Shown piece after piece: positions 2,873 through 12,226 of a DNA stretch of 39,128 bases. The number at the start of each line of letters is the position of its first letter. The first letter of the stretch is position 1. Source of the stretch: an uncultured Bacteroidota bacterium (GTDB lineage Bacteria > Bacteroidota > Bacteroidia > Flavobacteriales > Flavobacteriaceae); contig CABZIT010000008.1 in NCBI GenBank assembly GCA_902525795.1, forward strand, positions 1-39,128. The letters run 5' to 3'. A model generated the notes under the pieces. It was not told the origin of the DNA. It saw only the letters and a program-made list of their open reading frames with translations, and ran no database searches. The position numbers and the translations under genes were made by a program.

Positions 2873-2896
2873 AACGTGTTACAAAACGTGTTACAA
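2873..2896 (+). repeat. Perfect tandem duplication of a 12-bp unit (aacgtgttacaa x2)
   Basis: Two adjacent identical copies of aacgtgttacaa occupy 2873-2884 and 2885-2896, in the sdhC-sdhA gap. They sit about 60 bp before the recombinase-like reading frame that is fused to sdhA. Phased direct repeats next to an integrase gene would fit arm-type binding sites or an operator; that role is inference. Confidence 0.75.
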
Positions 2897-2956: not shown

Positions 2957-3235
2957 ATGTCAAAAAAGAAGTTAACCTTTTCTTTAAATTACAGAAAACC
3001 TAAGTCACAGTACAAAGACTCTGATGAGTTAATGATATGTATCCGCTATTATCATAAGTGTAGCAATACGGACAAAACCAAAATTATTAAAAAAAGTACC
3101 GGTGTTAAATGCATGCTTAAAGATTGGAATACGGACTGGCATAAAAGTAACGATCGCGCCCCTGTAAAATCTACTGATCCAAATGCCAAGAAAAAAAATA
3201 AAATTTTAAAAGAAAAGGTAAAAAGTTTTGATATT
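2957..3235 (+). mobile_element. Remnant of a tyrosine recombinase: arm DNA-binding domain fused in frame to sdhA
   Basis: Residues 1 to about 93 of the sdhA reading frame do not belong to the SDH flavoprotein family. Their layout is that of the N-terminal arm-type DNA-binding domain of Bacteroidetes integrases: basic start, a strand like [11 protein letters not shown], then [11 protein letters not shown], the signature LKDWN, and a polar stretch ending [15 protein letters not shown]. The core-binding and catalytic domains of a recombinase (R...HxxR...Y) are absent from the window, so this is only a fragment. The frame runs without a stop into SdhA. The family call rests on pattern recognition and needs a profile search. 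Confidence 0.65.
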
Positions 3236-5272
3236 GATGAGCTTTACAGCTCTGTAAAAAATGATTCATTTTCACCATATTTAAATTCTAAGATTCCTTT
3301 TGGTGACATAGAAAAAAAGTGGACCAATCATAAAAATACTATTGATCTTGTAAGTCCTGCAAATAAAAGAAATATTGATATTATCGTTGTAGGTACAGGG
3401 CTTGCTGGAGGATCAGCCGCCGCTACTTTGGCTGAACTTGGGTACAATGTTAAAGCTTTTTGTTTTCAAGACTCGCCAAGACGAGCGCACTCCATCGCTG
3501 CGCAGGGCGGGATCAATGCAGCAAAAAATTACCAAGGTGATGGAGATTCTGTTTATCGACTGTTTTATGATACAGTAAAAGGTGGAGACTACCGATCAAG
3601 AGAAGAAAATGTTTACAGACTTGCTGAAGTTTCTGCAAATATTATTGATCAGTGCGTGGCACAAGGAGTTCCCTTTGCTAGAGATTATGGTGGTTTACTG
3701 GATAATCGATCTTTTGGAGGTGTATTGGTTTCTAGAACTTTTTATGCCAAGGGACAAACAGGGCAACAATTATTACTTGGAGCTTATTCGGCAATGAATA
3801 GACAAATCGCTAGGGGAAAAATTAAAATGTATAACCGTCATGAGATGTTAGACATTGTTAAAGTAGATGGTAAAGCAAGAGGAATCATTACTAGAAACTT
3901 AGTGAATGGAGAAATTGAAAGACATTCTGCTCATGCTGTCGTACTGGCAAGTGGTGGGTATGGAAATGTATTTTATTTATCTACTAATGCAATGGGTAGT
4001 AATGTAACAGCTGCATGGAAAGCACATAAAAGAGGAGCCTTCTTTGCTAATCCTTGCTTTACACAGATTCATCCTACTTGTATTCCTGTTTCGGGAGATC
4101 ACCAATCCAAGTTAACGCTAATGTCAGAGTCTTTGAGAAATGATGGTAGAATTTGGGTTCCAAAAAAATCAGAAGACGCTAAAAATGTCAGGTCTGGAAA
4201 ATTAAAACCCACGGAAATTGCTGAGAATGATAGAGATTACTTTTTAGAGAGAAGATATCCCGCATTTGGGAACCTTGTTCCAAGAGATGTAGCCTCTAGA
4301 GCGGCTAAGGAAAGATGCGATGCAGGATTTGGAGTTAATAAAACAGGGGAAGCTGTTTATTTGGATTTTGCTTCATCAATTATTAGATATGGAAAAGAAC
4401 AGGCTTTAGTGAATGGACAGGACGAAAACAATGTGGAGTTGGTACAAAAACTGGGTAAAGAAATAATAAAGAAAAAATACGGCAACCTATTTCAGATGTA
4501 TGAAAAAATTGTGGATCAGAACCCATATGAAACTCCCATGATGATCTATCCTGCCGTACACTATACTATGGGTGGTATTTGGGTAGACTATAATTTAATG
4601 ACCACTGTTCCTGGTTTGTATGCCATTGGAGAGGCAAATTTTTCTGACCATGGAGCAAATAGATTAGGCGCATCTGCACTTATGCAAGGTCTGGCAGATG
4701 GTTACTTTGTATTGCCCTACACAATTGGGGATTACTTATCTAAAGAAATTTCCACGGGACCAATTCCCAATGACACGGAGGAGTTCATAAAAGCGGAGAA
4801 AGAAGCTAAAGAAAAAATTAATCTTTTTATAAATAATAAAGGTTCCAAAAGGGTAGATTATTTTCACAAAAAACTAGGAAAGATAATGTGGAATAAGTGT
4901 GGAATGGCTAGAAATAAAAAAGACCTTGAATCAGCAATAAAAGAAATTTCAGCATTGAGAAAAGATTTTTGGAAAAATGTTAAAGTTCCTGGATCTCAAG
5001 ATGAGTTTAATGAAGAGCTTGCTAAAGCTGGAAGAGTTGCTGACTTTTTGGAATTAGGAGAGTTATTTGCAAAAGATGCATTGGATAGAGAAGAATCTTG
5101 TGGAGGCCATTTCAGGGAGGAACATCAAACTAAAGAGGGTGAAGCCACACGTAAAAAAGAATTTCAATTTGTATCAGCTTGGGAATATGTTGGTGAGCCA
5201 AAAAATGCAATTTTACACAAAGAGGAATTGAAATATAAAAATATCGAAGTAAAAGAAAGAAGCTATAAATAA
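2957..5272 (+). CDS. sdhA: Succinate dehydrogenase/fumarate reductase flavoprotein subunit with foreign N-terminal extension
   Basis: Oxidises succinate to fumarate using covalently bound FAD, at the membrane with SdhB and SdhC. The SdhA-like part starts near residue 109 ([14 protein letters not shown]). It shows the FAD dinucleotide motif [12 protein letters not shown] (about 144-155), the FAD-linking region [11 protein letters not shown], the catalytic-arginine region [11 protein letters not shown], and HYTMGG and RLGASAL near the C-terminus, ending KERSYK. Total length is 771 residues, about 100 more than usual. Candidate ATGs are 2957, 3032 and 3113; no ATG, GTG or TTG lies in frame between codon 53 and the native N-terminus. 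Any product therefore carries at least 56 extra residues, which resemble an integrase arm domain. sdhB follows 5 bp downstream. Confidence 0.9.
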
Positions 5273-5277
5273 TATTA

Positions 5278-6021
5278 ATGAGACTTACATTAAAAATTTG
5301 GAGACAGAAAAATTCTGAAACAAAGGGAAAAATTGAATCATACGATATCGATGAGATATCACCCGATATGTCTTTTTTAGAAATGTTGGATGTGTTGAAT
5401 GCAAAACTTATCAATGAAGATCAAGAACCCGTATCTTTCGATCATGATTGTAGGGAGGGAATTTGTGGCTCATGTTCTTTATTTATTAATGGTCGTGCAC
5501 ATGGTCCAGACAGAAGAATAACCACTTGTCAACTTCACATGCGAAAATTTAAAGACGGGGATACTATATATATTGAACCATTTCGTGCAAAAGCATTTCC
5601 CGTGATCAAAGATTTAGTTGTTGATCGTAGTGCATTTGATAGAATTCAACATGCTGGTGGATATATTTCAATTAATACATCTGGAAATACACAAGATGCA
5701 AATGCAACGCCTGTAAACAAAGAGGATGCTGATGCTGCTTTCGATGCTGCAACTTGTATTGGTTGCGGAGCTTGTGTGGCAAGCTGTAAAAATTCATCTG
5801 CCATGCTATTTGTTGGGGCCAAAGTTTCTCAGTACTCATTATTACCACAAGGTCAAACAGAAGCTTCAAGAAGAGTCATTAATATGGTAAATCAAATGGA
5901 TTTAGAGGGCTTTGGTAATTGCTCAAATACGGGTGCTTGTGAGGTGGAATGTCCAAAAGGAATATCGCTTGATAATATTGCAAGGATGAATAGAGAACTA
6001 GTTAAAGCATCCTTTAAATAA
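5278..6021 (+). CDS. sdhB: Succinate dehydrogenase iron-sulfur subunit
   Basis: A 247-residue electron-transfer subunit between the flavin of SdhA and the quinone site at SdhC. The N-terminal ferredoxin domain carries C58, C63, C66 and C84 for the [2Fe-2S] cluster. The C-terminal domain carries C160, C163, C166 and C170, plus C215, C221 and C225, for the [4Fe-4S] and [3Fe-4S] clusters. All ligands are present, so the enzyme looks intact despite the SdhA extension. It is co-transcribed with sdhA. Its stop lies 1 bp from the stop of the converging lipoprotein gene, with no visible terminator. Confidence 0.95.
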
Positions 6022-9307: not shown

Positions 9308-12226
9308 ATGAAAAATAAATTCTTCTCAAGCTTATTAGCAGTTTTAATTTCTGTAACTGCATTTTCTCAACGTGATTCTAATAATTCACCTACCTTAATT
9401 GGAACGTCGGTTAATATGTATAAGGTACAACCCCTTGAATCCAGATTATCTTCTTTGAAAATTGCAGAATTTAAAGAGAATAAGGGCCTTTATGATAGCA
9501 GGTCTTCTAGACAAAAAATTATCCCTGGTAAAGGGTCTACGGGTGATGATATTCTGTCTAATAGTGATAAGCCAATGTCTCAAAAACTGCAAGTAAAGTC
9601 AATTGATTTTACTTTTAACTCTGGATCTTTTAATGGAGGTGGAGGTCCTACAGATCCTGCAGGTGCTGTTGGTCCTAATCATTATGTGATTATTAGTAAT
9701 GCAGGTTTTAGAATTTACAATAAATTAGGGAATCCGGCTACAAACTGGCTAGATTACTCTGCTATTTTTGATGGAAATAATCTTTGTTGTGATCCAACTG
9801 TTTCCTACGATCACGATGCGAATAGGTTTGTAATGACAGTTTTAGCTTATGATGGAGTTCATGTTGCTGTCAGTGGAGGTCCTAACCCATTGGGGGGATG
9901 GAATGTATATGAATATGACCAGAACACAGACTATCAAAAATTATCTGTTTGGGGAGATGGATACTATTTTACAGCGAATAAATTTGGTGGATCTAAGGTA
10001 TATGCAGTTGACAAAGAGGCCATGATTCAAGGAGCTTCTTCAGCTGATATTCAAGGTTTTGATTTGCCAGGCTTAGCCATAGGGGGCTTTTACTCGCCAC
10101 AAGCGTTAAACGCAATTAACGATGATTTATCAAGTGGCCCTGCAAGTATAGTGTATTATGCGGACGATGCATGGCCTGGGGTAAGTTATGATCATTTGAA
10201 AATATGGTATATTGATGTTGATTGGGACAATCCAAACAATTCATCAATTTCAAATCCACAAGCATTAGAAACAACCCCATTTATAAGTGTATTTGATGAA
10301 GGTAGTTTTTCAAATCTTGATCAACCTGGTTCTCCAATTGATATTGATGCTATCCAAGGTACTATAATGAATCAAGCACAATTTAGAAAGTTTCCTGATT
10401 ATAATTCTGCAGTGTTTAATTTTGTTGTAGATACGGACGGGTCTGCTAATGAAATTGCGGGAATCAGATGGTATGAAATGCGCCAGGACAGTGACAATGA
10501 CCCATGGTACATTTATCAAGAAGGAACTTACACATCGCCGAATGGTAAACATGCATGGTTAGGCAGTATGGGGATTGATATGAATGGAAACATTGCAATG
10601 GGTTACTCAGGAATGGGTGGTACTACTAATACTTATGTAAGCTCTTATTACACTGGAAGGTTTGAAAATGATCCCTTAGGAGTTATGACTATTGAAGAAA
10701 CATTGCTTGATGCTGGTGGATCTAATATTTCACAAACAAATAGATATGGTGATTATGCAAAACTTGCACTAGATCCGTCAAATCAAAAAAGCTTTTGGTT
10801 TATTACAGAAAACAAACAAGGAAATAATATATCAAACCCAGTTGGTGTTTTTCAGATAATTTCAGATAATGATTATGATATTGGCGTTGTTGATATTGTT
10901 GCTCCAACATCTAGTGCTTTTACAGGTCCTGTAAATGTGACTGCATCAATCTATAATTATGGGCAAATTCCAGTTTCCAACTTTAATGTGTACTACCAAG
11001 TTGAAGGTGGTTCGCAAGTGGTTGAAACTTACGTGGGTACTATTGTACCTCAACAAACCGTAAATTATACCTTTTCAAATGCTGTTGATTTAGCGGTTGA
11101 AGGGCAAACGTACACCATTGAAGCGGGAACACTCTTAAGTAATGATGAGGACAATAGTAATAATTCCTACGCTGTAGAGGTTACTCATTTGGCTGCCTTT
11201 GACGTAGGTATTTCATCAGTGATTTCCCCAACGGACGGTACATTATCAAATTGTCAAGAGGTTATTGTAGAAGTAACAAATTATGGAGGAAATAATTTAT
11301 CAAATGTAGAGGTAACACTTGTGTTTGGTTCTTTGACTACAACATCAGTTCTGTCAAGCATTGCTGCAGGTGATTCAATAGAATTTACCTTAGATGGTTG
11401 TGTGGATATGGCCATTCCTGGTGATTACACTCTTACAGTTTATACTTCCTACCCAGGTGATGCAAATAGCTCTAACGACTCACTGACAGTTTCGGTTACA
11501 AATGTTGGGCTTTGTACACCTGAGGCAGATTGCTCCTATGGTGATGGTATGACATCATTTGAATTTGCGGATATAAGTAATTTGGATTCAGGATGTTCTG
11601 AGTTAGGATATGGAGATTATACTGATTTAACAACCGACCTATTGCAAGGGGAAACCTATGATATGACTTTTTCGTCTGGATACGGAACACAGGTATTTAG
11701 AGTTTGGATTGATTATAATGATGACTTTGTATTTTCATTAGACGAATTAATTGTAGATAATCCTGTGTTGGCACAAGGTCAAGGACCGGGCGACTATACT
11801 GGAACCCTGCCTGTTGAAATTCCTTCGGATGCTTCTTTAGGCCAGCACATGATGCGTGTAAAATCAAATTATGGAGCACTTGTACCAGATGATGCGTGCG
11901 AAGGTACTGAGTATGGAGAAACGGAAGATTACACGGTCAATATTATTAGTTCCTTGGGAATGGATGATTTGACTAATAGCTCTGAACTTTCTGTATTTAC
12001 CAATGACAATAAAATGTTTAACATAATATTGACTTCAGATTTTTATGGTACAGCAGACCTCACAGTTTTTGATGTTACAGGAAAGAGAATTGTTTTTCAC
12101 AGGTTTAATAAAGAGACAGCATCATACGAATATGGTCTAGACATGTCTTACATGTCTGCCGGTGTATATTTGGTGAAAGTTGGAAATTCTATATTTGGAA
12201 AAATTAAAAAGATCGTTGTGAAATAA
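9308..12226 (+). CDS. Large T9SS-secreted protein with CARDB-like and GEVED domains
   Basis: A 972-residue secreted protein. It has a signal peptide (1 to about 21, ending FSQ); a large N-terminal region (about 100-520) rich in aromatic and Asp/Gly residues, possibly a beta-propeller, that I do not recognise; two CARDB-like Ig folds (from about 523, starting YDIGVVDIVAP); a GEVED domain (about 735-880, with VWIDYNDD and the signature YGETEDYTVNI); and a T9SS type A sorting tail (LTVFDVTGKR...SAGVYLVKV). It is probably released or attached at the cell surface. One base separates it from the protease gene downstream, so the two are surely co-transcribed and may act together. Confidence 0.8.
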   Translation: MKNKFFSSLLAVLISVTAFSQRDSNNSPTLIGTSVNMYKVQPLESRLSSLKIAEFKENKGLYDSRSSRQKIIPGKGSTGDDILSNSDKPMSQKLQVKSIDFTFNSGSFNGGGGPTDPAGAVGPNHYVIISNAGFRIYNKLGNPATNWLDYSAIFDGNNLCCDPTVSYDHDANRFVMTVLAYDGVHVAVSGGPNPLGGWNVYEYDQNTDYQKLSVWGDGYYFTANKFGGSKVYAVDKEAMIQGASSADIQGFDLPGLAIGGFYSPQALNAINDDLSSGPASIVYYADDAWPGVSYDHLKIWYIDVDWDNPNNSSISNPQALETTPFISVFDEGSFSNLDQPGSPIDIDAIQGTIMNQAQFRKFPDYNSAVFNFVVDTDGSANEIAGIRWYEMRQDSDNDPWYIYQEGTYTSPNGKHAWLGSMGIDMNGNIAMGYSGMGGTTNTYVSSYYTGRFENDPLGVMTIEETLLDAGGSNISQTNRYGDYAKLALDPSNQKSFWFITENKQGNNISNPVGVFQIISDNDYDIGVVDIVAPTSSAFTGPVNVTASIYNYGQIPVSNFNVYYQVEGGSQVVETYVGTIVPQQTVNYTFSNAVDLAVEGQTYTIEAGTLLSNDEDNSNNSYAVEVTHLAAFDVGISSVISPTDGTLSNCQEVIVEVTNYGGNNLSNVEVTLVFGSLTTTSVLSSIAAGDSIEFTLDGCVDMAIPGDYTLTVYTSYPGDANSSNDSLTVSVTNVGLCTPEADCSYGDGMTSFEFADISNLDSGCSELGYGDYTDLTTDLLQGETYDMTFSSGYGTQVFRVWIDYNDDFVFSLDELIVDNPVLAQGQGPGDYTGTLPVEIPSDASLGQHMMRVKSNYGALVPDDACEGTEYGETEDYTVNIISSLGMDDLTNSSELSVFTNDNKMFNIILTSDFYGTADLTVFDVTGKRIVFHRFNKETASYEYGLDMSYMSAGVYLVKVGNSIFGKIKKIVVK
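10874..11945 (+). repeat. CARDB-CARDB-GEVED module, copy 1
   Basis: A roughly 1.07-kb coding module beginning at YDIGVV and ending at YGETEDYTVNI. It recurs twice in the next gene. The copies are diverged, but short stretches such as gaagattayac are nearly identical. Confidence 0.7.

Follow-up and report, generated by a model that had tools for sequence, protein, structure and literature searches.

A succinate dehydrogenase flavoprotein with an integrase-type arm domain and candidate operator repeats at its own gene in flavobacteria

The sdh locus and its fused flavoprotein

The window, that is the whole 39,128-nucleotide stretch of DNA analysed here, forms contig C8 in an assembly that measures 1.08 Mb and is 57% complete, and it carries on its plus strand three genes of succinate dehydrogenase (SDH) in the order sdhC-sdhA-sdhB. 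The first, sdhC (2189–2851), is an open reading frame (ORF) for the 220-aa cytochrome b subunit, whose product matches the Pfam family Sdh_cyt weakly (E 3.1e-4, under the cut-off) and whose place directly ahead of sdhA fits this assignment, and the last, sdhB (5278–6021), assigned by its ORF and Pfam match, encodes the 247-aa iron-sulphur subunit. Between them lies sdhA (2957–5272), which starts with ATG and encodes 771 aa; it was assigned by its ORF, its Pfam and NF005749 matches and its recurrence in the genus. Approximately the first 90 residues of the product are extra relative to the SdhA body. Three parts can be distinguished in the protein: an arm DNA-binding domain (residues 6–89; 2972–3223), delimited by Pfam, profile comparison and a structure model, a variable linker (residues 90–108; 3224–3280), recognized by the alignment of extensions, relaxed selection and low pLDDT, and the SdhA body (residues 109–771; 3281–5269), set by an NF005749 match that begins at residue 108. 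That match, over residues 108–771, scores 1166 bits against a subfamily cut-off of 866, and FAD_binding_2 and Succ_DH_flav_C are matched as well; SdhA downstream of the extension is intact, as an earlier sequence-only reading of this DNA had held. The same reading found no standard in-frame start between codon 53 (3113) and the native SdhA N-terminus, and a codon scan agrees, since ATG, GTG or TTG occurs within the first 139 codons only at codons 1, 26 and 53.

The sdhC-sdhA spacer contains an operator-like tandem, GTGTTACAA-N3-GTGTTACAA (2876–2896, plus strand), with 7-mer cores at 2876–2882 and 2888–2894. It is followed by two candidate promoter boxes of the form TAnnTTTG, which we take to be the Bacteroidetes promoter consensus, one at 2912–2919 and one at 2935–2942 (TATTTTTG, plus strand). 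The stretch immediately 5′ of the sdhA ATG is alike across the genus.

As judged by profile comparison, the N-terminal ~90 residues of SdhA are homologous to integrase arm domains. The profile search of these residues that had been proposed did return PF17293 (Arm-DNA-bind_5) for residues 16–89 at E 8.6e-4, but with 20.2 bits, under the Pfam cut-off of 22.6. Of 33 related extensions, 24 match the same family at E ≤ 1 (best 2.2e-6), and 22 columns are invariant among 33 diverse extensions. Strong evidence comes from profile–profile alignment, in which the 33 related extensions set against 15 integrase arm domains gave a probability of 97.2% (E 3.8e-11), so that the arm-like character claimed for the ~93 N-terminal residues is borne out. 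The model of the arm (mean pLDDT 85.3) has strands at residues 6–10, 24–34 and 41–53 and a helix at 77–89, which is the order of three strands and one helix described for integrase arm domains (PMC8138268). When the PDB was searched with this model in Foldseek, no hit reached E ≤ 0.001 and the hits were uninformative; by sequence, too, no PDB relative was found. The model of full-length SdhA (25 similar sequences) has a mean pLDDT of 59.7 and is poor over the body; the arm and the low-confidence linker reappear in it, with pLDDT below 50 at residues 97–113. Pfam matched neither a recombinase core-binding or catalytic domain nor a ribbon-helix-helix, proline dehydrogenase or P5C dehydrogenase domain in the fused protein.

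The same arm family is also met outside SdhA. One locus (L199; G332:C9, 308–2521, minus strand) encodes a 737-aa C-5 cytosine DNA methyltransferase with an N-terminal Arm-DNA-bind_5 (E 9.4e-8), which indicates that the arm domain has joined other enzymes too. In the genus of the window, an integrase-like ORF of more than 495 aa, open at the contig side (L158; G013:C24, 2–1486, minus strand), matches Arm-DNA-bind_5 above the cut-off.

Spread and history of the fusion

Among 21 genomes of the genus, sdhA was found in 16 and its N-terminus is visible in 14, of which 13 are fused and one, G005, is unfused. The named-genome scan gave 53 loci, 51 of them fused: 50 extend to the SdhA signature and one (L079) passes from the arm into SdhA before the contig ends; the two loci not counted are L087, cut too early to tell, and L056, in which a 131-aa arm ORF stands separately. 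With the same junction in 13/14 genus genomes and in 51/53 loci of other assemblies, an assembly chimera is rejected and the in-frame fusion of the arm with sdhA is real, as first read. The fused loci come from uncultured Bacteroidetes single cells and from assemblies labelled Formosa, Cryomorphaceae and Flavobacteriaceae, and the habitat that is called marine here is a reading of these labels.

Within the order the fusion was seen in three families. The arm profile matched nine of 395 genomes in an order scan, five of them with fused SdhA (the window's genome, one in f8 and three in f11); the remaining matches (G455, G482, G625 and G639) are weak and lie in ORFs of 326–453 aa, three of which look like integrases. 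The family scan (299 genomes) matched seven, namely five fused genomes (G000, G007, G024, G101 and G183), one with a free arm ORF (G170) and one with an integrase (G087). These proportions make the fusion a minority trait. The fusion-bearing assemblies in these scans are 1.0–1.9 Mb and many are incomplete. What the sequence-only reading had missed is that the trait is an old one, spread widely among marine flavobacteria and present in many with small genomes.

In a tree of 68 SdhA bodies, G005 is the single unfused member of a clade (100/99) whose other 23 sequences are fused, so that it has probably lost the arm. The fused/unfused label requires six state changes on this tree, five of them forced by starred branches, and between groups the identity of the arm does not correlate with that of the body (r −0.07). 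Both observations stand against simple vertical descent, which was rejected, and make losses, transfer of the domain, or both likely. Seven fused sdhA genes have apparent non-ATG starts, TTG in L067 and L071 and GTG in L068, L072, L074, L075 and L077, which may lower their translation.

Repeats upstream of the fused genes

The sequence-only reading had given the fused sdhA an upstream region of its own, which stands, but had overlooked a repeat motif in the spacer that is linked to the fusion. The motif, GTGTTACAA, is asymmetric and often forms direct repeats 11–12 bp apart, roughly one turn of the helix, 5′ of fused sdhA, at many loci also 5′ of sdhC. An unbiased 7-mer ranking was made on 32 fused loci, selected from the 53 mainly to thin near-copies; their upstream 150 bp were compared with the remainder of the same loci, and GTGTTAC came out at the top, ~106-fold enriched and present in 28 of the 32. 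For counting, a site was defined as GTGTTA[C/T] on either strand, in the sdhC-sdhA spacer or in the 250 bp before sdhC. The sdhC-sdhA spacers of 54 fused loci hold 134 sites in 6.4 kb, whereas the other 299 kb of the ranking loci have 65. All 54 have at least two sites before sdhA or sdhC, and at least one precedes sdhC in 22 of the 50 with enough sequence. The 42 unfused loci (sets of 16 and 26) have no site in 38 cases, one in four and two in none; their higher mean G+C (0.39 in the 26-locus set, vs. 0.32) lowers the number of chance sites a little, and the loci in these co-occurrence counts are not phylogenetically independent. Since arm and sites are adjacent, a single deletion removes both, as perhaps happened in G005, and this genome was rejected as independent support.

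Where the sdhC-sdhA spacer of a fused locus is 1–4 bp (L088, L127 and L128), the sites precede sdhC, reading GTGTTAT in L127 and L128; with sdhA so tightly coupled, the sites thus follow the region that should drive it. Across 42 loci the motif is GTGTTA(C)AA. Of 110 neighbouring site pairs, 74 point in the same direction, 36 of these at 11 or 12 bp, and further clusters lie at 22/23, 35/36 and 46–48 bp; these spacings fit monomers stacked on one helix face better than a dimer on a palindrome. The positions vary, being upstream of the likely promoter in the window's genus and at or near the start codon in some other lineages, which makes the sign of any regulation uncertain.

Across the 21 genus genomes, the tandem GTGTTAY-N4/5-GTGTTAY occurs 28 times, 23 of them before sdhA and covering all 13 fused genomes, and the reversed control pattern matches once. 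Three exact tandems, set aside as incidental, fall within a single orthologous coding sequence of G000, G008 and G011, which by eye encodes a transporter. Another precedes a gene that is thrS-like by eye, and the last, found in G007, separates a flavodoxin gene from a second flavoprotein gene, whose ATG follows 18 bp later. This divergent pair (L038, 374–2736) is situated ~2 kb upstream of sdhC, and the second flavoprotein is nearest to FrdA/TfrA models, below their cut-offs. A looser tandem pattern, searched in 20 chosen genomes, was found at 18 places in nine genomes, its reversed control in three genomes; both matches in G024 lie before sdhC and before sdhA. The looser pattern is absent from six fused or arm-bearing genomes, G101 and five others (G183, G170, G527, G537 and G499) whose sites are otherwise arranged or read GTGTTAT, and it is present in one of six unfused genomes (G021). 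The window's own genome also contains two identical GTGTTAC pairs 3.4 kb apart (L167 and L168; G000:C24:8771–8792 and 12141–12162), which perhaps lie in a repeated gene.

In G170 (L056, 4998–9050) the 131-aa arm ORF is open and four GTGTTAC-type sites stand before it. The native SdhA body was not found in this assembly (84% complete); the sole match to it, at 31% identity, is a flavoprotein encoded farther along, past the arm ORF; it belongs to another SDH type (NF005866, 857 bits vs. 819) and to a different SDH operon lying directly downstream. This one genome hints that the module of arm and sites outlived its enzyme.

Capture of a mobile-element start codon by sdhA, as proposed at first, is plausible, but searches for the donor element found none. 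No relative turned up in viral contigs and none of the arm in phage records, and neither of two profiles detected an arm domain encoded in the 52 viral stretches with the tandem motif. The best match other than SdhA in the family scan is the integrase of G087 (L095), and GTGTTAC is absent from the 3.2 kb examined at that locus. Of 28 integrase-type loci tried, three had no readable ORF and L002, not integrase-like by eye, was dropped; none of the 24 that were read has more than one GTGTTAC.

A candidate autogenous regulator and its alternatives

From its sequence, the fused SdhA is probably an autogenous “trigger enzyme”, similar to PutA but with an integrase arm, that would bind its own operator: it combines a DNA-binding-type domain on a metabolic enzyme with operator-like sites at its own promoter. 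The arm domain is very likely to recognize GTGTTACAA, which it would bind as a monomer, in the manner of integrase arm domains on arm-type sites. Control of its own operon by SdhA, in either direction, is likely, and given such control we expect repression rather than activation with reasonable confidence. SdhA outside the membrane complex would occupy the operator and most likely repress sdhAB, and SdhB, the SdhC anchor, FAD or substrate would pull it into the membrane complex, whereby the operator would be freed. Integrases are described as repressing their own synthesis (PMC10516654), so that the arm may have been captured along with its sites, perhaps from an integrase gene adjoining its own arm-type sites. 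We lean towards a wider reading, in which complex II of many genome-reduced marine flavobacteria would be its own transcription factor, arm and arm-type sites having been captured as a ready-made feedback loop; it also takes in L056, where the module would have outlived its enzyme, and G007, the one genome in which another flavoprotein gene would have come under the module.

For ten close pairs, the dN/dS values are 0.030–0.094 over the first 90 codons and 0.024–0.063 over the body, the arm being somewhat above the body in nine of the ten. Over two sets of 18 and 16 more distant sequences, in which many distant pairs are saturated in dS, the arm core has a pN/pS of 0.19 and 0.26, the linker one of 0.46 and 0.67 and the body one of 0.11 and 0.15. 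By these estimates purifying selection is strong on the arm core and relaxed in the linker. The DNA-binding tail that had been suggested for SDH is supported.

It is conceivable, though unlikely, that the arm has lost its DNA binding and been kept for the structure or assembly of SDH, and that the repeats are the target of another regulator. Purifying selection shows that the domain matters and not for what, DNA binding by the arm is a prediction, and SDH works at the membrane. However, at least two sites are present in 54/54 fused and 0/42 unfused loci, the repeat is direct and asymmetric, unlike the palindrome of a common dimeric regulator, and the arm ORF of L056 is still open without its SdhA. 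It is most improbable that the repeats are relic or live parts of recombination sites and that the arm serves site-specific recombination in trans: integrase arm domains do bind arm sites near recombination sites (PMC8138268), but the sites discussed here are found ahead of sdhC in loci that couple sdhA to this gene, and in G007 ahead of a different flavoprotein gene, and no recombinase catalytic domain is among the Pfam matches listed for the fused SdhA. A harmless scar, that is leftover integrase coding sequence giving a start codon and promoter only, had been considered in the earlier reading and is rejected as highly improbable, for although the lack of a standard in-frame start after codon 53 makes the extension unavoidable once the native start is gone, and although G005 lost the arm, a scar would drift, whereas this domain is conserved across genomes and is held (dN/dS 0.030–0.094; 22 invariant columns) where the linker is not.

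Autogenous control by the arm-bearing SdhA, if true, would mean that a flavoprotein of complex II carries its own regulator and would be a clear domestication of an integrase domain, perhaps along with its DNA sites; ocean bacteria with small genomes would then have a way to control respiration that needs no separate regulator. No description of SDH or SdhA with an integrase arm or a DNA-binding domain, or as a trigger enzyme or domain fusion, was found in the open-access papers that were searched.

The closest parallel is PutA, described as a membrane-associated flavoenzyme with an N-terminal DNA-binding domain and an operator beside its own gene, which in E. coli is a single-target regulator (PMC5293562; PMC8249747). 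In anatomy the two agree: each is a flavoenzyme that works at the membrane and has a DNA-binding-type domain at its N-terminus, and each has an operator, in the fused SdhA a candidate one, beside its gene; PutA uses a ribbon-helix-helix domain and oxidizes proline, whereas the fused SdhA has an integrase arm on an SDH flavoprotein and asymmetric direct repeats, and its regulation is inferred. With the arm domains of tyrosine recombinases (PF17293) it shares profile homology and the three strands and one helix, but here the arm is followed by SdhA and not by core-binding and catalytic domains. MrpR, the SPbeta prophage repressor, is described as a tyrosine-recombinase fold turned DNA-binding regulator (PMC10516654), a regulator derived from a recombinase, as proposed for the fused SdhA; MrpR still has both the core-binding and the catalytic fold and is joined to no metabolic enzyme, whereas the fused SdhA keeps only the arm, on an enzyme. 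Ordinary SdhA of Flavobacteriales has the same full-scoring enzyme body and the same sdhC-sdhA-sdhB order, but in the 42 unfused loci it is ~640–680 aa long, with sdhC-sdhA spacers of at most 24 bp and no paired sites. Trigger enzymes are already known; an integrase arm on an SDH flavoprotein, together with its own repeats, is new.
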